Shown here one piece after another: positions 2,854 through 15,905 of a DNA stretch of 64,000 nt; position 1 is the stretch's first letter; every line of letters starts with the position of its first letter. Source of the stretch: Cyanobium sp. CZS48M (GTDB lineage Bacteria; Cyanobacteriota; Cyanobacteriia; PCC-6307; Cyanobiaceae); contig JAUCZK010000005.1 in NCBI GenBank assembly GCA_030373145.1, positions 1-64,000 of the forward strand. Direction: 5' to 3'. A program made the position numbers and the translations under genes. The notes under the pieces are model-generated. The model saw nothing but the letters and a program-made list of their open reading frames with translations, made no database searches and had not been told where the DNA came from.

Positions 2854-4085
2854 GAACCTCTGGAAAACCCACTAAAATCAATCCAGATCCAAGACTGAGA
2901 CTGGAACGGATGGCCGCCCCCCTCCAGCTGGGCTTCACGGACTACGAGCAGATCTTTGCCAAAATGAGGACGCGTCGCCAGCGCTTCTTGGATGAGATGG
3001 AGGCCACGGTTCCCTGGGAAGCGTTTTTGGCCTTGATCAAGCCCGTGTATCACAAGCCCTCCAGCAAAGGAGGTCGTTCGCCGATTCCTTTGGAGGTGAT
3101 GCTGCGGATCCACCTACTGCAGCAGTGGTTCACGCTTTCAGATCCACTGATGGAGGAGATGCTGATCGATAGGCCCTGCTTCCGCCGCTTCGCAGGGATC
3201 GAGACGATGGAAGGGAGGATCCCTGATGAGACGACGATTCTCAACTTTCGCCATCTGCTGGAAGAGCACCGGATCGCGGAGCAGATTCTTGAGGGCGTGA
3301 ACCAGATGCTGAGCAAGAGGGGAGTGATGCTGAGGGAAGGCACGATCCTTGATGCCACGATCATCAATGCCCCCAGCTCCACCAAGAACAAGGCCAAGGA
3401 GAGGGATCCTGAAATGCACTCGGTGGCCAAGTGCAAGCAGTGGTTCTTTGGAATGCGCTGCCACATCGGAGTTGATGCCGCATCTGGCCTGGTCCACGCT
3501 GTTGAGAGCACCGCCGCCAACGTGCATGAGCTGAACACAGCAGCAGACCGACTCCATGGGGATGAACGCCTCATCTACGGCGATGCAGGCCACATCGGCA
3601 TTGAGAAACGTGGCGATTTCCAGGACTGCGAAGCTGAGTTCAGGATTGCCATGAAGCCCGGCCAGCGCAGAGTGCTTCCAGAGACACCAGAGGGCAGGCT
3701 TCTGGATCTGATTGAGACGGCGAAAGCCCACTTCCGCGCCAAAGTGGAACATCCCTTTCGAATCATCAAATGTCAGTTCGGCTTCCGGAAGGCCTACTAC
3801 CGAGGAATCCGCAAGAACGACCTCAAGCTGAAGTTTCTCTTTGCCCTGGCAAACCTCTGGATGGTGCGGGAACGAATACCTGATCCAGCGTAAAGCAAGG
3901 GCTTGGTATATCTAAAGATCGATCATCATCCAGAAATCAAGCCATAACGAACGCATGGTGGAAACTGCCTGAACGTCTTTGCGTGGACTGCTGTGAGCGA
4001 AAGGAGGGCGCAATCTGTTCAGTATCGTCTCATAGACGAGAATGAGACCAGATTATTCGGATTAAGGCGTCTTGATCAGAGGTTC
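2854..4085 (+). mobile_element. IS5-family insertion sequence (ends tentative)
   Basis: The transposase at 2910-3893 defines the element. The only inverted pair I found flanking it is GAACCTCTG at 2854-2862 and CAGAGGTTC at 4077-4085. No matching target duplication is visible, and the right end would leave 190 noncoding bases after the transposase, more than usual. The presence of the element is secure; the boundaries are not. Confidence 0.35.
2910..3893 (+). CDS. IS5-family transposase
   Basis: This 327-residue DDE transposase looks intact. It has the N-terminal DUF772-type domain (PLEVMLRIHLLQQWFTLSD, then IPDETTILNFRHLLEEH). The catalytic core follows: ILDATIINAP (first Asp), LIYGDAGHIG (second Asp) and the C-terminal VEHPFRIIKCQFGFRKAYYR segment with the catalytic Glu. 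This order and the length match the IS5 subgroup. It cuts and pastes its own element through terminal inverted repeats. A decayed relative with the same TTILN..HLLEEH block lies at 50235-50465, so the family has been active in this genome more than once. The copy here sits between the glycosyltransferase and the cassette-borne 172-residue gene. Confidence 0.9.
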   Translation: MAAPLQLGFTDYEQIFAKMRTRRQRFLDEMEATVPWEAFLALIKPVYHKPSSKGGRSPIPLEVMLRIHLLQQWFTLSDPLMEEMLIDRPCFRRFAGIETMEGRIPDETTILNFRHLLEEHRIAEQILEGVNQMLSKRGVMLREGTILDATIINAPSSTKNKAKERDPEMHSVAKCKQWFFGMRCHIGVDAASGLVHAVESTAANVHELNTAADRLHGDERLIYGDAGHIGIEKRGDFQDCEAEFRIAMKPGQRRVLPETPEGRLLDLIETAKAHFRAKVEHPFRIIKCQFGFRKAYYRGIRKNDLKLKFLFALANLWMVRERIPDPA

Positions 4086-4880: not shown

Positions 4881-6643
4881 GAGGCTGTTGCGCATAGATC
4901 AGCGCACACCTTCTCCACAGACGGCCACGCATCTGCCCAGAACCCAGTGACAGCAACGGCTTTGGCCGAGATCATGGGTCATGAGCAAGCCCAAGACCTT
5001 CCGCCCCTGGGTGCCTGAGCAGGCCTGGCTGCTGCCGCCCTCGCCGATCGACTGGCTGCCCAAGGACCATCTGGCATTCTTTCTGCTGGATCTGATCGAT
5101 CAGCTGGATCTCGATCCCATTCTCCAGCTGTACCGCCAGAAGGACGCCCGCGGCGAGAAGGCCTACGACCCCAGGATGATGGTTGTGCTGCTTCTGTACG
5201 CCTACTGCGTCGGGATCCCTTCGTCACGAAAGATCGAGAGGGCCTGCTACGAGGATCTGCCGTTCCGGGTACTGAGCGGGAACCAGCAGCCGGACCACAC
5301 GCGGATCAGTGAGTTCCGCCGGCGGCACCTGGAGCTGCTGGAGGATCTGTTTGTGCAGGTGCTCAGGCTCTGTCAGAAGTCCGGCCTGGTGCAGATGGGC
5401 CATGTGGCGCTGGATGGCACCAAGGTGGGAGCCAACGCCAGCATCCACAAGGCCATGAGCCACGAGCGCATGGAGAAGAGCGAGCAGCAGCTCAGGCAGG
5501 AGATGCGGGCTTTGCTGAGGAAGGCCGAGATCATCGACGCCCAGGAGGACGGCCGCTACGGCAAGGGCAAGCGGGGCAGTGAACTGCCAGAGGAGCTGCA
5601 ACGCCGGGAAAGCCGGCTGGAGAAGATCCGCCAGGCCAAGGCTGAGCTGGAGGCAGAAGCCGCTGCGGCCCAGGCCCGCCGGCGCCAGAAGCAGGCTGAT
5701 GCTGCCGCTACGGAGGCCGAGCAAGGCGACGACGACAGCAAAGAAAAGCTCAGCAGCCGGGCGCACCAGAAGCAGCAACGCGCCGATACCGCACGAGCGC
5801 TGGCACTGCAGAAGCTCCAGGAGACGGGAATCGATCCGGAAACGGTGGGTCTGGGGGAAGCTGAACCGATGGCCATGCCCACACGGGGACTACCGAGCAA
5901 CGCCCAGGGCAAGCCGAGCCCCAAAGCCCAGCGCAATTTCACTGATCCAGACAGCCACGTGATGAAAAGCGGCAATGGCTACATCCAGGGCTACAACGCC
6001 CAGGCCGCAGTGGACAGCAAGCACCAGGTGATCGTGGCGATCGGGGTGAGCAACCAGGCTCCAGATGTCGAACACCTCGTCCCCATGCTGGAGCGCACCA
6101 TCGCCAGCACCGGCACCATGCCCGAGACGTTCATTGCGGATGCGGGCTACTGGAGCGAGGCCAACGCCAAGACCTGCAGCGATCGGGGCATCGATGCCTA
6201 CATCTCCACCGGGCGCCAGAAGCACGGCGAGCAGCGAGCACCATCACGGGGTCCGGTCCCAAAGGATCTCGACGCCAAAGGCAGAATGGCCCGCAAGCTC
6301 AGAAGCAAGAACGGCCGTGAGGTCTATGCCAGGCGTAAGGCGATCGTCGAGCCGGTGTTTGGTCAGACGAAAGAATATCGCGGCCTGCGGCGCTTCCTGC
6401 TGAGGGGGCTTGAGAAGGTGAATGGAGAGTGGTCGCTGATGAACACGAGCCACAACCTGCTCAAGTTGTTCCGATTCAGCTGGGCGGTGACATGAAGGCC
6501 CCACTGTCCCCCGGTGGCTCCCGCCGGGGGCCGCCAACAGATGAAGGCTCCGTACTCAGAGCGCCGATGGTGTAATCGCAGCAGGTCCGAGCCACGGCAG
6601 GGTTTTCACGGCGGAGATCACGGATTATTCGTGCAACAGCCTC
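4881..6643 (+). mobile_element. IS1182-family insertion sequence
   Basis: The left end reads GAGGCTGTTGC from 4881 and the right end is its complement GCAACAGCCTC ending at 6643. The pairing extends two bases further out (AG/CT). Flanking bases CTAG (4877-4880) and CTTG (6644-6647) would be a palindromic 4-bp target duplication with one change, as IS1182 elements typically make. The size of 1.76 kb and the single 504-residue transposase fit the family. It landed about 20 bases after the core of the attC at 4777-4861, inside the leader of the brnTA cassette. Confidence 0.7.
4981..6495 (+). CDS. IS1182-family transposase
   Basis: The 504-residue protein begins with the typical IS1182 opening (FRPWVPEQAWLLPPSPIDWL, then LPKDHLAFFLLDLID), followed by the PRMMVVLLLYAYCVGI and DHTRISEFRR helix-rich domain. 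The DDE core shows HVALDGTKVGANASIHKAMS (first Asp), a long charged Gln/Ala/Glu-rich insertion at about residues 160-280, TFIADAGYWSEAN (second Asp) and KAIVEPVFGQTKEYRGLRRF (Glu). No stop or frameshift interrupts it, so the element may still be mobile. ATG at 4981 is used because a homologous-looking N-terminus starts there. It is more GC-rich than the surrounding cassette DNA, so it came from a GC-rich host, possibly this genome. Confidence 0.92.
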   Translation: MSKPKTFRPWVPEQAWLLPPSPIDWLPKDHLAFFLLDLIDQLDLDPILQLYRQKDARGEKAYDPRMMVVLLLYAYCVGIPSSRKIERACYEDLPFRVLSGNQQPDHTRISEFRRRHLELLEDLFVQVLRLCQKSGLVQMGHVALDGTKVGANASIHKAMSHERMEKSEQQLRQEMRALLRKAEIIDAQEDGRYGKGKRGSELPEELQRRESRLEKIRQAKAELEAEAAAAQARRRQKQADAAATEAEQGDDDSKEKLSSRAHQKQQRADTARALALQKLQETGIDPETVGLGEAEPMAMPTRGLPSNAQGKPSPKAQRNFTDPDSHVMKSGNGYIQGYNAQAAVDSKHQVIVAIGVSNQAPDVEHLVPMLERTIASTGTMPETFIADAGYWSEANAKTCSDRGIDAYISTGRQKHGEQRAPSRGPVPKDLDAKGRMARKLRSKNGREVYARRKAIVEPVFGQTKEYRGLRRFLLRGLEKVNGEWSLMNTSHNLLKLFRFSWAVT

Positions 6644-6648
6644 CTTGA

Positions 6649-6671
6649 GCCGGCCAGGATTGACGGCCGGC
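6649..6671. promoter_or_regulatory. Palindromic operator candidate for BrnA
   Basis: GCCGGCC (6649-6655) and GGCCGGC (6665-6671) form a perfect 7-bp inverted repeat with a 9-bp spacer. It straddles the -35 box of the brnTA promoter. BrnA is a ribbon-helix-helix antitoxin that represses its own operon in characterised systems, so this is a natural binding site. Inference from position only. Confidence 0.5.
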
Positions 6672-6688
6672 TTTCAAGTAGCTACAAT
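6660..6688 (+). promoter_or_regulatory. Sigma-70-type promoter of brnTA
   Basis: TTGACG (6660-6665) is separated by exactly 17 bases from TACAAT (6683-6688), close to the consensus in both boxes. The predicted start of transcription falls at or within a few bases of the GTG codon at 6694, so the mRNA would be leaderless or nearly so. It lies inside the cassette, as expected for toxin-antitoxin cassettes that must be expressed without the integron promoter. Confidence 0.65.
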
Positions 6689-6693
6689 AAATC

Positions 6694-6999
6694 GTGCAGA
6701 TCGATTTCGCCCCTTTAAAGGACGCATCTAATCTCAGCAAGCACGGTGTCTCCTTGGCGCTTGCAGCTGAGCTTGACTGGGATGCTGCTCTGGTTTGGGT
6801 TGATGATCGAACTGACTACGGCGAAGCACGGATGATCGCATTAGCACCGAAGACAGCGATCCTGTACTTCGTGGCTTTCGTAGACCGCTCAACGGTCCGA
6901 AGAATCATCAGCCTTCGCAGAGCAAACCGTCGTGAAGCGAAGCACTATGTCAAAGCAACAGAAGAAATCCTCCGTGCTGATCCCGACTCCCGAAGATGA
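6694..6999 (+). CDS. brnT: BrnT family ribonuclease toxin
   Basis: The 101-residue protein matches the BrnT fold throughout: FAPLKDASNLSKHGVSLALA at the N-terminus, a DDRTDYGEARMIALAP middle strand-turn, and the RRIISLRRANRREAKHY signature near the C-terminus. BrnT is a RelE-like ribonuclease that blocks translation and is neutralised by BrnA. The GTG start places the family N-terminus (QIDFAPLKD) at residue 2 and is only six bases from the -10 box. It is co-transcribed with brnA, which overlaps its 3' end. A decayed second copy lies at 11749-11967. The attC site directly after brnA marks the pair as an integron cassette, where toxin-antitoxin genes are thought to stabilise arrays. Confidence 0.9.
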   Translation: MQIDFAPLKDASNLSKHGVSLALAAELDWDAALVWVDDRTDYGEARMIALAPKTAILYFVAFVDRSTVRRIISLRRANRREAKHYVKATEEILRADPDSRR

Positions 7000-7258
7000 T
7001 CAGGCGATCAATGCTGCTGCCAAGTCTGATCCTGATACCCAGCCGCTTACTGATGAGCAGCTCCAGGCCATGGTCCCCATTCGCTCATTGCGAGGGCGCC
7101 CAAAGTCACCACACAAAAAGCAGTTGGTCTCTATCAGGTATAGCCCTGAAGTTCTTCACTATTTCAAGAGCTTTGGCGTCGGCTGGCAGGCTCGGATGGA
7201 TGCTGCCCTCAAGGAGTATGTAGCCAATCATCCTCTTCGTGATGCAGAGGAGGCCTAG
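6947..7258 (+). CDS. brnA: BrnA family antitoxin
   Basis: This 103-residue protein overlaps the end of brnT by 53 bases in another frame, as is usual for brnTA. Residues 20-50 (DPDTQPLTDEQLQAMVPIR) are the toxin-binding acidic stretch. The C-terminal half (KKQLVSIRYSPEVLHYFKSF followed by GWQARMDAALKEYV) is a ribbon-helix-helix DNA-binding domain with the BrnA-typical SPEVLxxFK motif. It should bind and inhibit BrnT and repress the operon, probably at the palindrome 6649-6671. I use the ATG at 6947; an in-frame ATG at 6932 would add five residues. The stop codon TAG is part of the attC inverse core GCCTAGC. Confidence 0.88.
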   Translation: MSKQQKKSSVLIPTPEDDQAINAAAKSDPDTQPLTDEQLQAMVPIRSLRGRPKSPHKKQLVSIRYSPEVLHYFKSFGVGWQARMDAALKEYVANHPLRDAEEA

Positions 7259-7339
7259 CATCGAGATCCAGCGGCTGGGTGCAGATGAGCTCAATAAAGG
7301 TATAGGGCTCCCGCCCGCAGCCGATCTTGAGCGTTAGGC
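7253..7339 (+). other. attC integron recombination site
   Basis: The inverse core GCCTAGC (7253-7259) contains the brnA stop codon and the core is GTTAGGC (7333-7339). The arms pair through GAGATC with GATCTT, and GCGGCTG with CAGCCG, with extra unpaired bases (CA) on the left arm. The right arm GATCTTGAGCGTTAGGC (7323-7339) is identical to that of the attC at 4777-4861. An 87-bp length and one-sided bulges fit attC. The inverse core has G in place of the second A, a small deviation. Confidence 0.8.
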
Positions 7340-7729
7340 AGACTTGATAAATACCAGCCATCTATGCGCTTGCTAGAATTCAGGGATCCCTAAACATCGA
7401 ATGAAGAGTCGCCGTATCGGATCCTAATCAATGAACAAAACTCGCAAGCAGCCAGCCATACTCGGTTTTGCCAACTCACATCTCTCTCCGTTGCTGTTCT
7501 CGCTACAGGCAGTTGCGCTGTCCGTCAGCCAACTCCCGATCGTGCCAAGTTTGGTGCAGCATGAAATGGTGTCGGAAAAACTCATTGAACCCTTTCGCCG
7601 TCTCTGTGAGTGTTGCTGATCTGAGGCAGAAGCGAGAAGGGTTATCAGTGAGTAGGCTGCGAATGCGCCGGCATCACCTCCCAATACCAACGTTTTTTTC
7701 CTGGTGGCCATCTCCCGACGATGGGAGAT
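7340..7729. other. Post-array region, no confident gene
   Basis: This 390-bp stretch after the last attC has no gene I would defend. A 62-codon frame from an ATG at 7431 (start MNKTRKQPAILGFANSH) lies in the cassette orientation, has no recognisable domain and no attC after it. A longer frame on the other strand is equally anonymous. It could be a truncated last cassette or the junction with the chromosome. Confidence 0.4.
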
Positions 7730-8638
7730 TTAGCCCTCGGCAGGGAGCGGCCCGGCAGGGTCGAGAAGTGCCAGCTGGGGATGGGGGTAGGACAACCCAT
7801 GGTGGGCAAAGGCCCGCTTGGCCCGCTTCAGCAGATCGGTGCGGTAGACGAACTCATCGCGGGCATCCATTGGATAGCAACGCAACCGGAACTGGGTGCC
7901 CCAGAGGTGCTCCTCCATCACCACCAGGATGGGCAGCCGCAGCTGGGTGTACTGACTGCTGTAGGCCGCCTGGTAGAGAATGTCCACTACCAGATCGACA
8001 TCGACTCTGTGGTCGAAATAGACATCCGTGGCCACCTGGGCCTCCAGCTTGCCGCTGTTGGCATTGGAGATCGGATCGGTCCAGAGGAGATTGTGGGGGA
8101 TGGTGATGGTGTTGTCGTCGGGAGTGACCAGCTGCAGACTGCGCAGCCCATAGCCGACGACCTCGCCGTAGTGGTCGCCGATCCTGACCCGATCTCCCAC
8201 CTGGTAGGACCCTTCGAAGAGGGACACGACGCCGGCGAGGATCGAACTCACGTAGTCCTTGAAGGCAAATCCCAGCGCCACCGCAAGGGTTCCCGTCAAG
8301 GCGAGAAGGTTGTTCTGGGTGAGGTTGAGGAACTGATCGAGCAGATAGGAGACAGTCACGATCAGGATCAGGCCCTTCAGGAACGGCACCGACTGTTTGA
8401 TCAGCAGCCGGTAGCGGCGCGCCACCTTTTCCGACAGCCAGCCGGTCAGCCGTTCGATCAGGAACATGCCGGCGTAGGCCAACAGCACGGCGAAGACCGC
8501 GCCGATTGTCTTCATCAGCGTGACATCGGCGAGGATGCGCTGCGCCGCCGTCTCGGCCCGGGCGGCGGCCGGCACCACCATCTCCAGCGCTGCCGACAGA
8601 GGGATCATGAACCTCAGGGGGAAGGATGTCGATCCCAT
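7730..8638 (-). CDS. MscS-family mechanosensitive ion channel
   Basis: The 302-residue protein has two or three N-terminal membrane helices (TIGAVFAVLLAYAGMFLIER, then FLKGLILIVTVSYLLDQFL). These are followed by the pore-lining TM3 region with its Gly/Ala packing (GTLAVALGFAFKDYVSSILAG). The beta domain comes next: YQVGDRVRIGDHYGEVVGYG, then VTPDDNTITIPHNLLW. The C-terminal alpha/beta domain ends near residue 290. MscS channels open under membrane tension to release solutes during osmotic downshock; many small relatives are gated by other signals. It is the last gene of a minus-strand unit, starting 3 bp after the stop of the AAA-like gene, which itself overlaps the patatin gene. Confidence 0.88.
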   Translation of the reverse strand: MGSTSFPLRFMIPLSAALEMVVPAAARAETAAQRILADVTLMKTIGAVFAVLLAYAGMFLIERLTGWLSEKVARRYRLLIKQSVPFLKGLILIVTVSYLLDQFLNLTQNNLLALTGTLAVALGFAFKDYVSSILAGVVSLFEGSYQVGDRVRIGDHYGEVVGYGLRSLQLVTPDDNTITIPHNLLWTDPISNANSGKLEAQVATDVYFDHRVDVDLVVDILYQAAYSSQYTQLRLPILVVMEEHLWGTQFRLRCYPMDARDEFVYRTDLLKRAKRAFAHHGLSYPHPQLALLDPAGPLPAEG

Positions 8639-8641
8639 AGC

Positions 8642-9766
8642 TCAGGCCTCCCCGGTGAAGAAGTTGTTGTCGTCCAGGGCCTTCACCAGCCCCGGGTAGT
8701 GAGACGGCTGCACGGACAGTTCCCCTGCCTTTGCCTCAATCAGCCCTTCGCCCAAGAGCCAGTGGATGCGGGGCTGAAGCCGATGGCTGGGGAGTCCCAG
8801 CCCGAAGGCGAGATGCTCCAAACGCATCGTGCCGTGGATCAGCAGGCTGTGCAGGATGTAGCGGTCCACATCGGTCAGGCTGGGCAGATCGGGCAGAGCA
8901 GGCCTGACCTGACGCATTTCAGCGCCGTCACTGTTCGACTCCAGCCGCAGACTTTCCAGCCAGAGGGCGGCGGCGATCCTGGGGCCGCCGCCGGCCAGCG
9001 CCGCCAGCTGGCTCCACTGGTCCACCTCGGGATCCTGGTCCGCATCGGTGGATGGATGGCCACCGGAGGCCGACTGTTGCAGGCCCAGGCCGGAGGCCAG
9101 CGGCGTCAGCCATTGCCGCAGCTGGGGACCATCGAGGGCCGGGAGGCTCCTGGCATCGGGGAAATAGGAGCTGATCTGGCTCACGTGGTCGAGGAACCTC
9201 CAGGCCCACCGGTTGCAGCCCAGCAACCAGAAGCGGTCGCGACGCTCCAGGATCACCTGCCGCAGCCGCTCGATGCCGCTCCAGCCGCCGATGCAGCGAA
9301 GGAAACACTGATCCAGATTCGGTAGGCTCAGCAGCACCGGCTCCCCTGTGTCGAGGGCGGGCGGCTGGGAGCCATCCAGAGCCGCGATGAGCATCCGGGG
9401 CACGGCGTCCGGATCGACCGGACGGCGGTGGCAGGGCAGGAGGGCTTGTCGGGCGGAGAACGGGGGGTCCCGCTCAGCGAGAACCGCCTCGATCAGCGCT
9501 GAAACCGGCTCTACCGGCCGGCTCAGCACGATCAGCACGTTGGGAGCCTCCGGATCGGAGCGCCAGGCCTCGACGGCCTCCCGCAGCGCCTCGCCCACGA
9601 AGGCCCGCAGCGGCAGCGGCACGCCCAGGGCGGCGATCTGTTTCTGCAGGGCGACGCTCCGCTCGCCGGGCAGTGGCCGCAGGGGGTCATCGGCCAGCTC
9701 GGACGTGCTGCGCGCGAACCAGCTGTCCAGACCGGTCTGCAGGGCCTCGAGCAGGGGTAGGCCCAT
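8642..9766 (-). CDS. AAA-like protein with C-terminal winged helix, function unknown
   Basis: This 374-residue protein has the layout of a degenerate P-loop/AAA module followed by a winged helix. APNVLIVLSRPVEPVSALIE and ILERRDRFWLLGCNRWAWRF resemble the beta-strand and sensor segments of proteins often encoded beside MscS channels. I see no clean Walker A GKT or Walker B DE motif, so ATP hydrolysis is doubtful. Residues 300-360 (LTDVDRYILHSLLIHG and RIHWLLGEGLIEAKAG) look like a winged helix-turn-helix. The start ATG at 9766 overlaps the patatin stop by one base (TGATG), so translation is coupled. The MscS gene follows after 3 bp. Context suggests it regulates or links the lipase and the channel; this is inference. 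Confidence 0.5.
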   Translation of the reverse strand: MGLPLLEALQTGLDSWFARSTSELADDPLRPLPGERSVALQKQIAALGVPLPLRAFVGEALREAVEAWRSDPEAPNVLIVLSRPVEPVSALIEAVLAERDPPFSARQALLPCHRRPVDPDAVPRMLIAALDGSQPPALDTGEPVLLSLPNLDQCFLRCIGGWSGIERLRQVILERRDRFWLLGCNRWAWRFLDHVSQISSYFPDARSLPALDGPQLRQWLTPLASGLGLQQSASGGHPSTDADQDPEVDQWSQLAALAGGGPRIAAALWLESLRLESNSDGAEMRQVRPALPDLPSLTDVDRYILHSLLIHGTMRLEHLAFGLGLPSHRLQPRIHWLLGEGLIEAKAGELSVQPSHYPGLVKALDDNNFFTGEA

Positions 9767-10719
9767 CAGAGCAGCTCCCTGAGGGCTGGCACCTGGCCCT
9801 TCATGGCCCGATACCCCTTGCGGATGATCCGGTTGGCCTTGTGGAAATCGAAGATGGCGAAGTCGTTGAGGGGTGGCTCCACCAGCAGGTCGGGAGCGTG
9901 GGCCTCCAGCCGGCTGCGGGTGACCTGCTGCTCCATCACGTTGAGCGAGGTGCCGATCACATCGAAGATGTTCGGGCCGGGGTCTTCGCTGGGGAGCCAC
10001 TGATCCACCTTGTCGTGGAGGGTCTCCTGAAGGCTCTGGTAACGATCGCCGAGGCTCTTCAGAAACGACTCCCGGCGGCGGTTCGACGTCTCACTGGGTG
10101 TCCTGGGGGAGGGCTCATCCTCGCCCTCCTCCGCCGGATCGGGCAGGGTGGAGGACGCCAGACCTCCGGTGACGTGGCTGCGGTTGAGATTCACCGCGAT
10201 CACGACGTCGGCTCCCATGTCCCTGACCACATCCACCGGGACGGGATTGACGATGCCGCCATCGCCGAGGAAGAGATCCCCATGGCAGAAGGGCGTGAAG
10301 ATGCCGGGAACGGAGATGCTGGCCCGCACGGCATCCACCATGGAGCCCGACCTGAGGTGCACCTCCTCCCCTCTGATGAGATCGGTGGCGACGCAGCAGA
10401 AGGGAATAGGCGAGGTCTCGATCTTCATCCCCTGCATGTGCTCCGAGAGCAGCTCGTAGACCTTGTTGCCATCCAGCAGACCAGTGGTGGGGAAGACCAT
10501 GTCGAAGTAGGAGAGCATGTCCCTCCAGCTCAGATCCCTGATGAAGTCTTCCAGTTCATCCAGTTCATCGGCGCAGTGAATGGCTCCCACCAGGGCTCCA
10601 ATGCTGGCTCCGGAAATGAAATCGATCGGGATCCCGGCCTCCTCGAGGGCACGAATCACACCGATGTGGGCCCAGCCCCTGGCTCCTCCACTTCCCAGGG
10701 CCAGCCCGACGCTTTTCAT
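9766..10719 (-). CDS. Patatin-like phospholipase (RssA type)
   Basis: The 317-residue protein shows the whole patatin signature. An oxyanion loop GLALGSGGARGWAHIGV lies near residue 5, the nucleophile elbow FISGASIGALVG has the catalytic Ser at about residue 38, and the catalytic Asp sits in FLGDGGIVNPVPVDV. It should hydrolyse phospholipids or other acyl esters at the cytoplasmic face of the membrane. The start at 10719 places the motif at the N-terminus, as in RssA; upstream in-frame codons add nothing recognisable. Residues 170-240 hold a proline/charged linker absent from the shortest members. It heads a tightly coupled unit with the AAA-like gene and MscS, and a second, frameshifted MscS lies just upstream. 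Confidence 0.88.
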   Translation of the reverse strand: MKSVGLALGSGGARGWAHIGVIRALEEAGIPIDFISGASIGALVGAIHCADELDELEDFIRDLSWRDMLSYFDMVFPTTGLLDGNKVYELLSEHMQGMKIETSPIPFCCVATDLIRGEEVHLRSGSMVDAVRASISVPGIFTPFCHGDLFLGDGGIVNPVPVDVVRDMGADVVIAVNLNRSHVTGGLASSTLPDPAEEGEDEPSPRTPSETSNRRRESFLKSLGDRYQSLQETLHDKVDQWLPSEDPGPNIFDVIGTSLNVMEQQVTRSRLEAHAPDLLVEPPLNDFAIFDFHKANRIIRKGYRAMKGQVPALRELL

Positions 10720-10828
10720 GGTGCAGGGACACGAAGAAAAACCGGAACTATCGTCCCATGAAAAGATACTGTGATCCACCACCCGTCGGTGAGCGAACTC
10801 TCTGCCTGAAACGGAAGTAGTAGGCCGC

Positions 10829-11712
10829 TCAACCGTTCGGAGACTGGGGAAGGGCGGGAGAAGCCGAGGCTGCCGGAAGGCCGGCGTCGGGGTCTGCAGG
10901 ATTCTCCGGAATCGTGCGCAGGGCCAGCGTCTCGAAGGGCATGTCGACCTCTGCCTCGCGAAGCGCCTCGAACAGGCGCTCCCGCAGGGTGTGGCGCACC
11001 GAGATGTGCTGCTGCTCGTCGGCGAGCCACACCTGGAGTTCCATGGCGACGTTGTAATCGTTCAGAGCCGTGACCACCACCCTGGCCGGTGGCTCCGCCA
11101 CCAGCAGGCCCTCCCACTGACAGATGGAAAGGGCAATCGTCCGCACCCTGTCGAGATTCTCTTCCACACCCACCGTGAAGGGAATATCGAGCCGGAGATG
11201 GGGAAAGTTTGTGTAGGAAGCGACGATTGAATTGACAACGATGGTGTTCGGCACCGCCAGCATCCTGCCATCTGGTGTCACCCCCCGGTAGAGCGCATGG
11301 TGATCCGATCCACCCGGCCGTAATGGCCGCCGACCTCGATGAGATCCCCCAGCACGAAGGGCCGGTCCCAGAAAATGAAGATGCCGGAGATCATGTTGGA
11401 GAGGGCGTCCTTGGCGGCGAATCCCAGACTGAGCCCCACCACGCCCAGGCTGGCAAGGATGGAGGTGGTGTTGATGCCCAGACGCCCCAGGGCCGTGATC
11501 AGCCCGATCGAAAGAATCAGATATTTCAGTAACGTCAACAGGAAATTGCCGGCTGTGGGATCGAGATCCGCCCGCTGCACGGCCAGGCCCATAGCCTTCT
11601 TCACCAGGCGCCACATCACCCAGCTCGCCAGAAGGATGAGCAGAGCGGCCAGGCCCTGCGGCATCCAGGCGAGAACCCCGGCCATGGCTGCTCCGCTCCC
11701 TTCGGGCGCCAA
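10829..11712 (-). pseudogene. MscS-family channel, single frameshift
   Basis: Residues from 11712 down to about 11285 encode membrane helices and the pore helix (TTSILASLGVVGLSLGFAAK, then FVLGDLIEVGGHYGRVD) and then run into a stop after RITMRSTGG. The rest of the channel continues in another frame (VTPDGRMLAVPNTIVVNSIV down to 10829). Adding one G to the run of six G/C at 11281-11286 restores one frame of about 294 residues. This is either a real inactivating slip in a homopolymer or a sequencing error. The remainder looks well conserved, so decay is recent if real. It lies 110 bp upstream of the patatin gene on the same strand. Confidence 0.8.
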
Positions 11713-11748: not shown

Positions 11749-11967
11749 AGCTGGAATGCAGCACTCGTCTGGATTGATGATCGGGCTGACTATGGAGAAC
11801 TAAGGATGGTTGCCCTGGCTCCCCTTGGAGACATACTCTTTATTGTTGCCTTTGTAGAACGCGAGACAGTAAGGAGAATTATTAGCCTACGCAGAGCCAA
11901 CCGCCGTGAGGCCAATCACTATGCCAAAGCCATTAAGGAAGCTCAACCTGAAGATGCTGACGATTGA
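11749..11967 (+). pseudogene. brnT remnant (N-terminus lost)
   Basis: From 11749 the frame reads SWNAALVWIDDRADYGELRM and continues to RRIISLRRANRREANHYAKA, ending at the TGA 11965-11967. This matches the C-terminal two thirds of the intact BrnT at 6694-6999 very closely. The first 25 or so residues are missing; the sequence switches abruptly from GC-rich mscS upstream DNA to brnT DNA near 11745, so the copy was cut at a junction. Without the N-terminus it should be inactive. Confidence 0.8.
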
Positions 11968-12190
11968 GGGCGATCTGTTGATTAAAGCGGCCGCGGAATC
12001 AGATCCTGATGCCCTTCCCTTCCGCTTACAGAAGAGCAAATGAGCGCGATGGTCCCCATGCGAGTGCTGCGCGGCCGCCCAAAGTTGGCAAAGAAAGCAG
12101 CTGGTTTCAATCCGACGTAGTCCTGAGGTTGTTGACTATTTCAGGGCTTCCTTAGAGCGTTTGTTAGAGAGATGGCGGCGGAGTGCATAG
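11921..12190 (+). pseudogene. brnA remnant (frameshifted)
   Basis: The reading starts at the ATG 11921 (MPKPLRKLN), overlapping the brnT remnant as in the intact pair. Homology to BrnA then moves through all frames: ESDPDALP, a shift, LTEEQMSAMVPMRVLRGRPK, another shift near 12090, then QLVSIRRSPEVVDYFRAS to a stop at 12190. At least two indels break it. It shares the MVPxRxLRGRPK block with the intact antitoxin. It could not make a working antitoxin, consistent with loss of the toxin. Confidence 0.78.
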
Positions 12191-12236
12191 AGACTTCTAA
12201 GGCAAGATGGTGTATACTCTCTGTATAGCCGCAATT

Positions 12237-12482
12237 GTGCCATGCAAACACGGCCAGAAGTGGGGAAATAGCCTTGGGGTGCGGATCACGCGCTCGCTTG
12301 CCGAAGAGGTCGGAGTCGGCCCAGGTTCAGAAGTCCGTCTGAGTGTCCTTGAGGGTGAGCTGATCGTGAAGCCGGCGTTTCCTGCTCGGCTCAAGCTAGA
12401 AAATCTCCTCGCAGACATCACTCCTGAAAACCGTCATTCAGCAGTGGACACTGGAGAAGCCGTTGGCGTGGAGATCTTCTGA
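12237..12482 (+). CDS. mazE: MazE/AbrB-type antitoxin
   Basis: The 81-residue protein carries the MazE swapped-hairpin DNA-binding domain (QKWGNSLGVRITRSLAEEVG, then GSEVRLSVLEGELIVKP) and an acidic C-terminal tail that would wrap the toxin (ADITPENRHSAVDTGE). It should neutralise MazF and repress the operon. The frame opens at an ATG at 12207, but a TATACT -10-like box at 12212-12217 and the TATAC/GTATA inverted repeat next to it lie after that codon. I therefore prefer the GTG at 12237, which starts just before the WGNSLG motif. Its stop overlaps the mazF start (TGATG). Confidence 0.82.
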   Translation: MPCKHGQKWGNSLGVRITRSLAEEVGVGPGSEVRLSVLEGELIVKPAFPARLKLENLLADITPENRHSAVDTGEAVGVEIF

Positions 12483-12784
12483 TGCCAGCCGCCTATGTGC
12501 CCGATAGAGGAGACTTGGTATGGCTTCAGTTCACGCCTCAGGCTGGAAGCGAGCAAGCGGGGAAACGGACAGCCCTGATCATGTCACCAAAGACGTACAA
12601 CAAGAAGGTTGGGTTGACCCTTGTCTGCCCAGTGACATCCCGGGTCAAAGGTTATCCCTTTGAGGTTCGCCTGCCCGATGGTCTTGAGGTTGGTGGCGGA
12701 GTTCTTTCCGATCAGCTCAAAAGCTTGAACTGGCGAATGCGAAAAGCGAGGCTGATTGGTCATGCGCCTGCACCAATTGCCTAG
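12482..12784 (+). CDS. mazF: MazF endoribonuclease toxin
   Basis: The 100-residue protein follows the MazF/PemK family from the N-terminal PDRGDLVWLQFTPQAGSEQA (with the catalytic-region Arg and the GSEQAG loop) through the KRTALIMSPKTYNK strand. It then reaches VCPVTSRVKGYPFEV (with the conserved Thr/Ser region) and VLSDQLKSLNWRMRKARLIG. MazF cuts mRNA at short sequences and is held inactive by MazE. The C-terminus stops about ten residues earlier than most relatives; the missing part is the last helix, so activity is likely but not certain. It is translationally coupled to mazE. Confidence 0.88.
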   Translation: MPAAYVPDRGDLVWLQFTPQAGSEQAGKRTALIMSPKTYNKKVGLTLVCPVTSRVKGYPFEVRLPDGLEVGGGVLSDQLKSLNWRMRKARLIGHAPAPIA

Positions 12785-13260: not shown

Positions 13261-14055
13261 ATGGCGCATCGTGGGCGGTGGTTGAAGGCTGGGCTGCTGA
13301 CTGGGCTGGGCTGGCTGGCTTCAGCCTGCAGTGTGGCGCCCGCCCCGAGGCCGCTTCTGGTGGCGGCCGCGGTGAGCCTGGCGGGTCCCCTCCAGGAAAT
13401 CGCGGCGGCTGAGGCACCTGGCTCGCGCGCCGGCCGGCCGTTGCAGTTTCACTTTGCCTCCTCGGGCGCCCTGCAGCAGCAGATCCTGCAGGGGGCGCCG
13501 GTGGATGTGTTTCTTTCGGCCGGCCAGCGTCAGATGGATGCGCTCCAGGACGCTGGCCGGCTGCTGCCCGGCAGCCGCCGCGAGCTGTTCAGCAATGAGC
13601 TGGTGCTGGTGGTGCCCGCTCGCTCCAGTCGGCGGACCCTCAGCTTCGAGGGCCTGGCGGGGCCTGAGCTGGGCTCGATCGCCATCGGTGATTCATCGGT
13701 GCCGGTTGGCGATTACGCCCGCCAGGTGCTTAGCGCCCTGGGGCTCAGCGCCGCGGTGGCCCCCCGGCTGGTGCCGCTCGGCTCCGCCCGGGCCGTGGCC
13801 CAGGCGGTGGCCCAGGGTCATGTGCAGGCAGGCCTGGTGTACCGCAGCGATGCCCAGTCGGACGACGGCCTGCGCATCACCGCGGCGGCACCCGCCGGCA
13901 GCCATGCTCCGATTCGCTACGTGGGTGCTGTGCTCACCTCCAGCGGCAACCCCGCCGCCGCTCAGGCCTATCTGCGCACCCTGGCGGAACCCCCCTCCCG
14001 TGAGCGCTTCCGCCGCCATGGTTTCGGGGTCCCTGATCCCTCCCCCCAGCCGTGA
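13261..14055 (+). CDS. modA: Molybdate ABC transporter substrate-binding lipoprotein
   Basis: The 264-residue protein starts with a lipoprotein signal (GLGWLASAC, Cys at about residue 23), so it is anchored on the periplasmic side. The mature part begins LLVAAAVSLAGPLQEIA, the ModA strand whose Ser contacts molybdate. FHFASSGALQQQI (second anion-binding Ser), VDVFLSAGQRQMDAL, SIAIGDSSVPVGDYARQVL and AGLVYRSDA follow, in the order of the family. It delivers molybdate or tungstate to the fused permease/ATPase that follows with a GTGA overlap. Molybdate is needed for the molybdopterin enzymes such as nitrate reductase. High GC and the tight operon mark a core gene. Confidence 0.9.
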   Translation: MAHRGRWLKAGLLTGLGWLASACSVAPAPRPLLVAAAVSLAGPLQEIAAAEAPGSRAGRPLQFHFASSGALQQQILQGAPVDVFLSAGQRQMDALQDAGRLLPGSRRELFSNELVLVVPARSSRRTLSFEGLAGPELGSIAIGDSSVPVGDYARQVLSALGLSAAVAPRLVPLGSARAVAQAVAQGHVQAGLVYRSDAQSDDGLRITAAAPAGSHAPIRYVGAVLTSSGNPAAAQAYLRTLAEPPSRERFRRHGFGVPDPSPQP

Positions 14056-15894
14056 GCGCGGGCCTTCCCGACCTTTCCCCCCTCTGGCTCTCCCTGCGCA
14101 GTGCCGCCCTGGCGGTGCTGCTGGTGGTGCCCTTGGGGTTTCTCGCGGCCCGCCAGGTGAGCCGTTGGCAGGGTTCCCGCCGCGCCGGCGCCGACCTGCT
14201 GCTGCTCTCGCCCCTGGTGCTGCCGCCCACGGTGCTGGGCTTTCTGCTGCTGCAGCTGCTGGGCCCCTACGGGCCAGTGGGTGCTGGGCTGACTCGTCTG
14301 GGTCTGGAGATCGTCTTCAACTGGCCGGCCACCGTGCTCAGCTCGGCGGTGGTGGCCTTTCCGCTGCTCTACCGCACCCTGCTGGCGGCCTTCGATCAGA
14401 TGGATCCCTCGCTGGAGGCGGTGGCCCTCAGCCTCGGGGCGTCCCCCTGGCGGGTGCTGCGGGCGATCACGCTGCCGCTGCTGATGCCGGGCCTGCTGGC
14501 GGGGATCAGCCTCGCCTATGCCCGGGCCCTCGGTGAATTCGGCACCACCCTGATGCTGGCGGGCAACATCCCCGGCCGCACCCAGACCCTGCCCCTGGCG
14601 ATCTATGCGGCGGTCGATGGCGGCGACCTTGCCCTGGCCTGGTTCTGGACCGTGATGGTGCTGATCCTCAACGGCCTCTGCCTGCTGCTGGTGCAGGGCT
14701 TCCAGGGCCGGCGGCTCAGGCGGCCGCAGCGCGCTCTGGAGCTGGCGGAGCCCGCTGCTCCAGGGGCTGCCGGAGCGGTGGCTGCGGGTGCTGGGGCTGC
14801 CGGCCCGATCCGGCGTCCGGCGTCGTTTCGGCTGGAGGTGGACCTGGAGCAGCAGCGACCCGGGTTCCAGCTGCAGTTGCGCTTCAGCAGCTGCTGCCCG
14901 CGCCTGGCCATCCTCGGGGCCTCAGGGGCAGGCAAGAGCCTGCTGCTGCGCGCTCTGGCCGGGCTGGAGAGTCCGGATCGGGGCTGCGTTCGTCTCAATG
15001 GCCGGCTGCTGTTCGAGAGCCAGAGCCGCCTCAATGCACCCCTGCAGCGGCGGCGCATCGCCATGGTGGTGCAGCACCACGCCCTCTTCCCGCACCTGAG
15101 CGTGGAGCAGAACGTGGCCTTCGGGCTCGCTGGGCTGGAGCGCCACCAACGCCAGACGCGGCTGCGAACCCAGCTGGAGGCCATGGGCCTGACGGCCCTC
15201 GCCGCTCGCTTCCCCCACCAGCTCTCGGGCGGCCAGCAGCAGCGGGTGGCCCTGGCCCGCGCCCTGGTGATCGAGCCTGATCTGCTGCTGCTCGATGAGC
15301 CCCTCTCCTCCCAGGACGCCTACCGGCGCCGTCAGTTGCAGCAACAGATGATCGAGCAGCTGCAGCGCAGCGGCGTGCCCTTCCTGCTGGTCACCCACGA
15401 CATCGATGAGGCCTACCGCATGGCCGATGACCTGCTGCTGCTCGATGGGGGTCGCCTGATCGCCCATGGCCCCCGCCAGCAGGTGTTCCAGCAGCCGGGA
15501 TCACCGGCGGCGGCGCGCCTCACCGGTTGCAAGAACATCACCCGGGTGGAGCTGCGCAGCAGCGGTGATCTCTGGGCGCCAGCCTGGGGTATGGCGCTGC
15601 GGCGCCAGCGGCCCTGGCAGAGCGGCACCACCCACGTGGGTCTGCGCGCCAATCATCTGGAGCTGCGCGCCGCCGCCGATCCGGCCGAGCCCGGTGAGCT
15701 CAATGCCTGGCCCTGCCGCGTGCTGGAGGTGAACGAGAGCGCCCTGAGCGTGTCGGTGTACGTGCTGGCGCTGGCGGCCCCAGGCCCCCCCATCAGCCCG
15801 CTGCAGGTGGAGATCAGTGCCCGCGCCTGGCGGCGCCTGGCTGCGGCGGGCACGCCCTTGACCCTCTCGATCCCCGAAACCTGCCTGATGCCCC

Positions 15895-15905
<11 letters not shown>
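14052..15905 (+). CDS. modBC: Fused molybdate ABC permease-ATPase (ModB-ModC)
   Basis: This 617-residue protein joins two usually separate subunits. Residues 1-225 are a ModB-type permease with five or more membrane helices and the EAA loop ([20 protein letters not shown], then [20 protein letters not shown]). After a Pro/Ala-rich linker, residues 255-480 are a ModC ATPase with Walker A ([14 protein letters not shown]), Q-loop ([12 protein letters not shown]), signature ([15 protein letters not shown]), Walker B ([10 protein letters not shown]) and the switch His ([11 protein letters not shown]). The last 130 residues look like a regulatory TOBE/Mop-type molybdate-binding domain. The GTG start overlaps the modA stop. 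Its 3' end overlaps the convergent glcE by 11 bp. ModBC fusions are known in cyanobacteria. Confidence 0.92.

Follow-up and report, generated by a model that had tools for sequence, protein, structure and literature searches.

Do the genes at positions 7730 to 11712 of the DNA studied here, which encode two channels of the MscS family, a patatin-like phospholipase and a protein of no named family, form one functional module, and what would such a module do? The DNA is a stretch of 64,000 nucleotides (hereafter the window) from Cyanobium sp. CZS48M, whose genome measures 2.77 Mb; it lies on contig C5. The first-pass annotation, made from the letters alone, had read these genes as one module with the layout of a membrane-stress or defence system. 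The open reading frame (ORF) coordinates bear out the arrangement that it described: all genes lie on the minus strand, the transcription order being upstream MscS (MscS_up), patatin (PAT), middle gene (MID) and downstream MscS (MscS_down), the MID start overlaps the patatin stop in a TGATG at 9764-9768, and 3 base pairs (bp) separate the MID stop from the MscS_down start. What we found is both narrower and stronger than a four-gene module, namely a clade of MscS channels with an AAA-fold partner, whose mechanism we infer. The four genes are as follows (lengths in amino acids, aa).

7730..8638, minus strand: MscS_down, MscS-family channel of 302 aa, member of the AAA/MID-associated clade and core partner of MID
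8642..9766, minus strand: MID, 374 aa, predicted pseudo-AAA protein with a winged helix, core partner of the channel
9766..10719, minus strand: PAT, putative RssA-like patatin phospholipase of 317 aa, accessory
10829..11712, minus strand: MscS_up, second MscS, frameshifted in the window and intact in four relatives

The distribution of these genes was assessed in a sample of the phylum Cyanobacteria (386 genomes) and in a sample of the family (300 genomes), both of which include the source genome. At E ≤ 1e-3, MID was found in 25 genomes of the phylum sample, spread over 13 families, and in 10 genomes of the family sample. MscS genes of the MscS_down type (E ≤ 1e-50, a cut-off for co-occurrence that we chose ourselves) were found in exactly the same 25 and 10 genomes, i.e. 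at the cut-offs used the AAA-fold partner and an MscS of the clade are present together, and two genomes (G462 and G499) harbour two copies of each. The hypergeometric probability of a co-occurrence in 25 of 25 carriers among 386 genomes is 7e-40, a value that ignores relatedness, and the MID-MscS arrangement is beyond chance. Two outcomes that the first-pass annotation had named as fatal to a module bear on this point. Conservation of the cluster as picocyanobacterial housekeeping is excluded by the presence of MID in only 10 of the 300 family genomes, and scattering of MID was not observed as far as the channel is concerned, no MID being found without MscS_down in the sampled genomes; as regards patatin, 26 of the 37 MID copies that were compared lack it as a neighbour.

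These 37 copies (the window, ten other loci and 26 further copies) also reveal a strongly conserved gene order, as MscS_down lies directly behind MID or is fused to it in 35 of them. One ORF stands between the two genes at locus L068, and at L059 (genome G355) MscS_down is located about 420 kb from MID on the same contig, both genes being retained though unlinked. At L060, a single ORF of 711 aa (132-2264) holds both MID and MscS_down; this frame may be a true fusion, or result from the loss of a stop or from an error in sequencing. The distances among MID proteins and among MscS_down proteins are correlated over 36 cyanobacterial pairs (Mantel r 0.78, a value not reached in any of 2000 permutations; the comparison excludes the pairs of Halomonas and Novosphingobium PP1Y), as expected for jointly inherited genes. 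As a separate observation, the MID-MscS pair occurs twice in tandem at L073 (3979-9571), with another MscS upstream.

MscS_down displays both the beta domain and the C-terminal domain of the MscS family (MS_channel_2nd, PF00924, E 3.4e-18, 66.0 bits for a cut-off of 20.2; MS_channel_3rd, PF21082, E 1.8e-10, 41.5 bits for a cut-off of 21), and its TM2/3 segment scores 20.8 bits, slightly below the cut-off of 23.1. A tree was built from 75 MscS cores, i.e. 42 associated MscS, 25 background sequences from seven cyanobacterial genomes and 8 upstream or neighbouring MscS; the split MscS_up of the window, the second Caulobacter MscS, five duplicate loci and rows shorter than 150 residues were dropped. 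A branch with a support of 100/100 separates all 42 associated MscS, including the unlinked copy of G355, from the 33 others, with the reservation that the tree program warns of long branches between the associated group and the MscS_up group and that the background sample is small. Six residues of MscS_down (N194, G196, S228, Y255, D258 and D268) are invariant in the 42 associated rows and reach at most 24 % in the others; all six are located in the C-terminal part, which we take to be cytoplasmic as in MscS.

The association extends beyond Cyanobacteria. A search of plasmids with MscS_down (E ≤ 1e-20) returned five records, and in all of them the gene immediately upstream of the channel gene is related to MID or of AAA type. 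The partner on the Halomonas plasmid is a relative of MID (67.7 bits to the MID profile), that of Novosphingobium US6-1 an AAA ATPase of 1110 aa (40.7 bits), that of Caulobacter an ATP-binding protein of 860 aa (18.6 bits; E 2.5e-7) and that of the haloarchaeon Salinirubellus a hypothetical protein of 331 aa (12.9 bits; E 1.3e-5), and on the plasmid of Novosphingobium PP1Y an AAA partner again lies directly upstream of the MscS. Taken individually, among the US6-1, Caulobacter and Salinirubellus matches solely that of US6-1 would be clearly significant. In Caulobacter a second MscS comes after the MID-type pair. Hydrophobic segments resembling transmembrane ones were read by eye in the alphaproteobacterial partners. 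When MID itself was used as query against plasmids, Halomonas was the one match; the Halomonas piece and the Salinirubellus partner each retrieved only their own record, and a second cyanobacterial MID matched no plasmid. The Halomonas relative of MID is frameshifted (L077, 7564-8711) and its MscS is open.

What kind of protein is MID? No Pfam family matched it above cut-off (best E 0.094), nor did any entry of the NCBIfam, PADLOC and PHROG libraries. An AlphaFold2 model based on a 36-sequence alignment (pLDDT 85.1, pTM 0.84) predicts an AAA+ alpha/beta core with a lid, followed by a winged helix. With this model Foldseek ranked RuvB best (E 2.7e-6, with a low TM-score of 0.35), the other matches comprising Orc1/Cdc6, HORMA-Trip13 and STAND/NLR proteins with TM-scores of 0.22-0.38 of query length. 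VIA-align 2 aligned MID with NSF D2 (Z 12.4, root-mean-square deviation (rmsd) 3.7 over 222 residues), clamp loaders and TnsC being tied within 1 Z. Three parts of MID matter for what follows.

9500..9523, minus strand: loop after strand 1 of MID, at the Walker A place (SRPVEPVS; from alignments)
9311..9337, minus strand: strand of MID at the Walker B place (PNLDQ versus VDDLQ in Novosphingobium; from an alignment)
8669..8872, minus strand: C-terminal winged-helix domain of MID (residues 300-367, from the AlphaFold2 model)

The Walker A pattern GxxxxGK[ST] is present neither in MID nor in 35 cyanobacterial relatives (alignment A2, which leaves out a split MID at L023). Its place is occupied in MID by SRPVEPVS, around which the model has a strand (78-83) and then a helix (89-97), and an xPVEP-like pattern is common among the relatives. 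The Walker B acids are missing as well: LSLPNLDQ of MID, whose would-be Walker B strand spans 145-149 in the model, aligns with ITVDDLQ of the Novosphingobium partner. The first-pass remark that the middle gene lacks clear ATPase motifs is thus confirmed by the alignments, and MID is, on its predicted structure, a pseudo-AAA protein with a winged helix and without nucleotide-binding motifs. Outside Cyanobacteria, the Walker A lysine is kept in three of the five partners, the motif being intact in those of Novosphingobium and Caulobacter and showing a K to R change in that of Salinirubellus. It thus seems that the ability to bind ATP was lost secondarily in Cyanobacteria, a direction of change that we infer.

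The ratio of nonsynonymous to synonymous substitution rates (dN/dS) against CCY 9618 is about 0.32 for MID, about 0.31 for MscS_down and 0.13 for patatin, and of these three genes MID shows the lowest similarity between the window and CCY 9618. Purifying selection acts on MID, so that the gene is not decaying. The idea that MID evolves fast owing to a conflict was also considered and rejected, as its dN/dS is like that of MscS_down and no sign of positive selection was seen. Between the window (7730-10719) and L012 the synonymous rates are uneven (dS 0.22 for MscS_down, 0.68 for MID and 0.55 for patatin); uneven dS among neighbouring genes may reflect recombination inside the module.

Co-occurrence, gene order, a common clade, the predicted fold and the absent motifs together form the basis on which we consider that MID and MscS_down probably constitute a two-gene unit, made of a specialised MscS channel and a dedicated cytosolic AAA-fold regulator. 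MID would bind the cytoplasmic part of the channel and set its opening and closing in response to the state of the cytosol. Control might be driven by ATP in the alphaproteobacterial relatives, whose partners keep the ATP-binding motifs, and the cyanobacterial MID, devoid of these motifs, would serve as a scaffold or sensor that works independently of nucleotides. In those lineages that have it, the RssA-like patatin might change the membrane through lysolipids and fatty acids or, alternatively, ensure lipid repair after stress. Lysophospholipids lower the tension threshold of MscS. For MscL, an excerpt of one study reports a threshold lowered by lysophospholipids (PMC12940486), so that a phospholipase encoded next to the channel could influence it by way of the membrane. 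Binding to the channel, control of gating, the lipid link and a role in osmotic or membrane stress are the parts of this proposal that we deduce rather than observe. A broader formulation, to which we would give slightly less than an even chance, is that of an as yet undescribed class of mechanosensitive channel system, of MscS type and common to bacteria and haloarchaea, with an obligate AAA-fold gatekeeper. This gatekeeper would run on ATP in some lineages and, in Cyanobacteria, would have become a pseudo-ATPase that needs no nucleotide; the system would sometimes be wired to a phospholipase that tunes the surrounding membrane.

Several observations weigh against these proposals. The genome search scores about 4 to 7 candidates per genome, and divergent members may have been missed on either side of the association. 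At L023 (genome G076) an insertion (6295-10250) splits MID, and MscS_down and patatin remain open. The E-values of the Caulobacter and Salinirubellus partners were computed for a database of seven sequences; with a large database these matches would count as marginal. Using the Novosphingobium MscS as query adds four plasmid records at E ≤ 1e-20 (three Paracoccus and one Pseudorhodobacter), whose MscS are outside the tree; the one inspected of these four, that of Paracoccus ferrooxidans, encodes a large MscS and no AAA partner for it. About 38 of the 49 clade-typical positions of MscS_down are cytoplasmic, which is about the share of the cytoplasmic part in the aligned core. The link to patatin is loose, 19 of the 25 MID carriers having no patatin of the PAT type at E ≤ 1e-70. 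Finally, the winged helix could bind DNA, in which case MID would be a transcription regulator and not a subunit.

We had considered the clade-typical residues as a map of a binding site and rejected this use, as they show no enrichment in the cytoplasmic part beyond its share of length; because the 49 positions are not concentrated there, only the six invariant residues are offered as a hint. The insertion at L023 carries transposase genes, IS21- and IS256-like by eye.

A DNA-binding MID that regulates the channel operon through its winged helix, without being part of the channel, would fit the operon arrangement. Csa3 (2wte) superimposes on its winged helix (72 residues, rmsd 1.4, Z 11.2, with the first MID model), and the best matches of the MID profile among solved structures are helix-turn-helix regulators (7fby and 9w4v), although these matches are weak (E 0.012 at best). 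Winged helices that end AAA domains often serve assembly, as in Orc/Cdc6 and STAND proteins. Moreover, the fused ORF of L060, the co-retention of the unlinked genes in G355 and the transmembrane-like segments of the alphaproteobacterial partners point to a role on the membrane side. We therefore regard a regulator of transcription as unlikely, and retain MID as the candidate regulator of the channel itself.

Does patatin belong to the unit? PAT matches the patatin family (PF01734, E 9.8e-29) and carries, as read by eye, a GxSxG motif (GASIG) and a DGG. Against the curated RssA model (NCBIfam NF007623) it scores 220.5 bits over residues 3-314, under the cut-off of 272, and its sequence suggests that it is a close relative of RssA, not filed as RssA itself; it shares the patatin domain with RssA and differs in standing beside MID and MscS. 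RssA has rssB as neighbour. A patatin gene adjoins the MID-MscS pair in 11 of the 37 copies, 8 times before MID and 3 times after MscS (L065, L067 and L068), the flanks of L054 and L060 being short in this count. At E ≤ 1e-70, patatin was found in 9 of the 386 genomes, 6 of which also have MID (P 3e-6, or 3e-5 without the source genome, both ignoring relatedness), and in genomes G460 and G499 it lies elsewhere. Patatin is a real yet optional associate of MID and MscS.

One might still regard patatin, MID and both MscS as a single four-gene machine in which patatin is necessary. The identical four-gene order, with an MscS upstream of patatin, is found in five picocyanobacteria including the window, and the three-gene order in three more; patatin stands beside the pair in another order at the three loci just named, and 6 of the 9 patatin genomes carry MID, as given above. 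Against this, we have already mentioned the 26 copies without adjacent patatin (again with short flanks at L054 and L060) and the 19 carriers without PAT-type patatin, and MID is missing from 3 of the 9 patatin genomes. The upstream MscS raises a further difficulty. It lies on the same strand, as the first-pass annotation had indicated, yet it is split in the window between two frames (11281-11712 and 10832-11290). It forms one open frame at L012, L018, L019 and L020 and its difference in length from the L012 copy falls inside a G/C-rich run, so a frameshift or a sequencing error accounts for the split. Other MscS genes occur upstream of MID at L072, L073 and L074. The upstream and neighbouring MscS placed in the tree fall in other MscS groups, outside the MID-linked clade, and MscS_up is, as judged from the position of its relatives' copies, in all probability an ordinary paralogue. 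Of the single module initially proposed, MID and MscS_down thus stand as the conserved core, whereas patatin is accessory and the upstream MscS falls away. A four-gene machine that needs patatin appears distinctly improbable, and the two-gene unit remains our preferred reading.

The same genes could also be read as an anti-phage or abortive-infection module, with MID as sensor and the patatin and channels as membrane-damaging effectors. Patatins are known defence effectors, the distribution of MID is patchy, transposases and toxin-antitoxin genes lie near the module, and the AAA core and winged helix of MID resemble those of STAND/Avs proteins (structure matches 6j5t and 8dgf). STAND/Avs proteins combine an intact nucleoside triphosphatase (NTPase) with C-terminal sensor repeats, and MID has no Walker motifs and ends after its winged helix. 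In the module, the only PADLOC match was PDLC00755 to patatin (E 0.042), the four remaining sequences having no match up to E 0.1, and PAT scores 10.4 bits against the DS-2 phospholipase model (NCBIfam NF053870), whose cut-off is 400. A search of 50,697 phage records (E ≤ 1e-2) yielded no relative of MID, and none of 60 pattern stretches for MID in viral contigs was confirmed.

The flanks of the MID loci point in the same direction. PADLOC and Pfam scans covered 136 of 139 flank proteins, three very large ones being left out (L060:2563-8376, L061:8639-14431 and L062:8127-13937). At E ≤ 1e-10, 36 PADLOC families match; among the 25 of them that were listed, two flank proteins matched per family, and PD-T4-6 models account for 21 of these 25. 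Pfam returned 158 families, and the 25 listed are largely housekeeping or general, including histidyl-tRNA synthetase, exonuclease VII, ribose-5-phosphate isomerase and orange carotenoid protein; this reading of the flanks rests on absolute numbers. On these PADLOC and Pfam contents we rejected a defence island as the main explanation. The defence layout suggested by the first-pass annotation was therefore not borne out, and we consider an anti-phage role highly improbable. Genes in the flanks were called as the longest ORFs, which amounts to a guess, and antisense shadow ORFs were disregarded; on this basis, patatin is the sole gene family to adjoin the pair at more than 5 of the 36 loci. The transposases and toxin-antitoxin genes are therefore a feature of the locus in the window and not of the MID-MscS pair.

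How does the pair compare with known systems? MscS_down resembles E. coli MscS and its relatives in its MS_channel_2nd and MS_channel_3rd domains and in size, and is set apart from MscS channels in general by its separate clade, by clade-typical residues and by an AAA-fold partner that was always present in the samples. MID resembles AAA+ proteins with a C-terminal winged helix (RuvB, Orc1/Cdc6) and STAND NTPases in its predicted fold, but differs from them by the absence of Walker A and B, its size of 374 aa, the lack of sensor repeats and its pairing with a channel. PII is a general nitrogen and carbon signal protein, with neither an AAA fold nor the status of a dedicated operon partner. With this difference, a precedent for a cyanobacterial MscS-like protein with a cytosolic partner is provided by PamA of Synechocystis, which binds cytosolic PII according to an excerpt of the original report (PMC4440785). 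As the first-pass annotation had stated, no named system has exactly the composition of the locus: none was found in the family libraries, and no description of the four genes or of the MID-MscS pair in the open-access PubMed Central literature, a search by which absence in print is only weakly tested.

MscS is usually described as gated by membrane tension alone. If the proposed regulation is true, some mechanosensitive channels have dedicated protein factors for gating or assembly, and this channel clade has so far been seen only with an AAA-fold partner, in Cyanobacteria, in Proteobacteria and on one haloarchaeal plasmid. Within the family, one type of channel would be found with partners that range naturally from ATPase to pseudo-ATPase, a series in which the role of the nucleotide is directly testable, and the pairing suggests a function for the unnamed family of MID.

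The surroundings of the locus in the window do contain mobile genes and toxin-antitoxin loci, as initially reported. At coordinates below those of the module are two DDE transposases with DUF772 domains (2910-3893 and 4981-6495). Two related copies of a BrnT/BrnA toxin-antitoxin locus enclose the module: an intact pair at 6694-7258 on one side and, on the other, a decayed copy with 67 % identity at 11751-12143, which starts about 40 bp past the start of the upstream MscS. A toxin-antitoxin pair of MazE/PemK type follows at 12207-12784. Further on, a putative binding-protein gene (13261-14055) precedes an ORF (14052-15905) in which an ABC permease domain and an ABC ATPase domain are joined, together forming what appears by eye to be a molybdate-type transporter.

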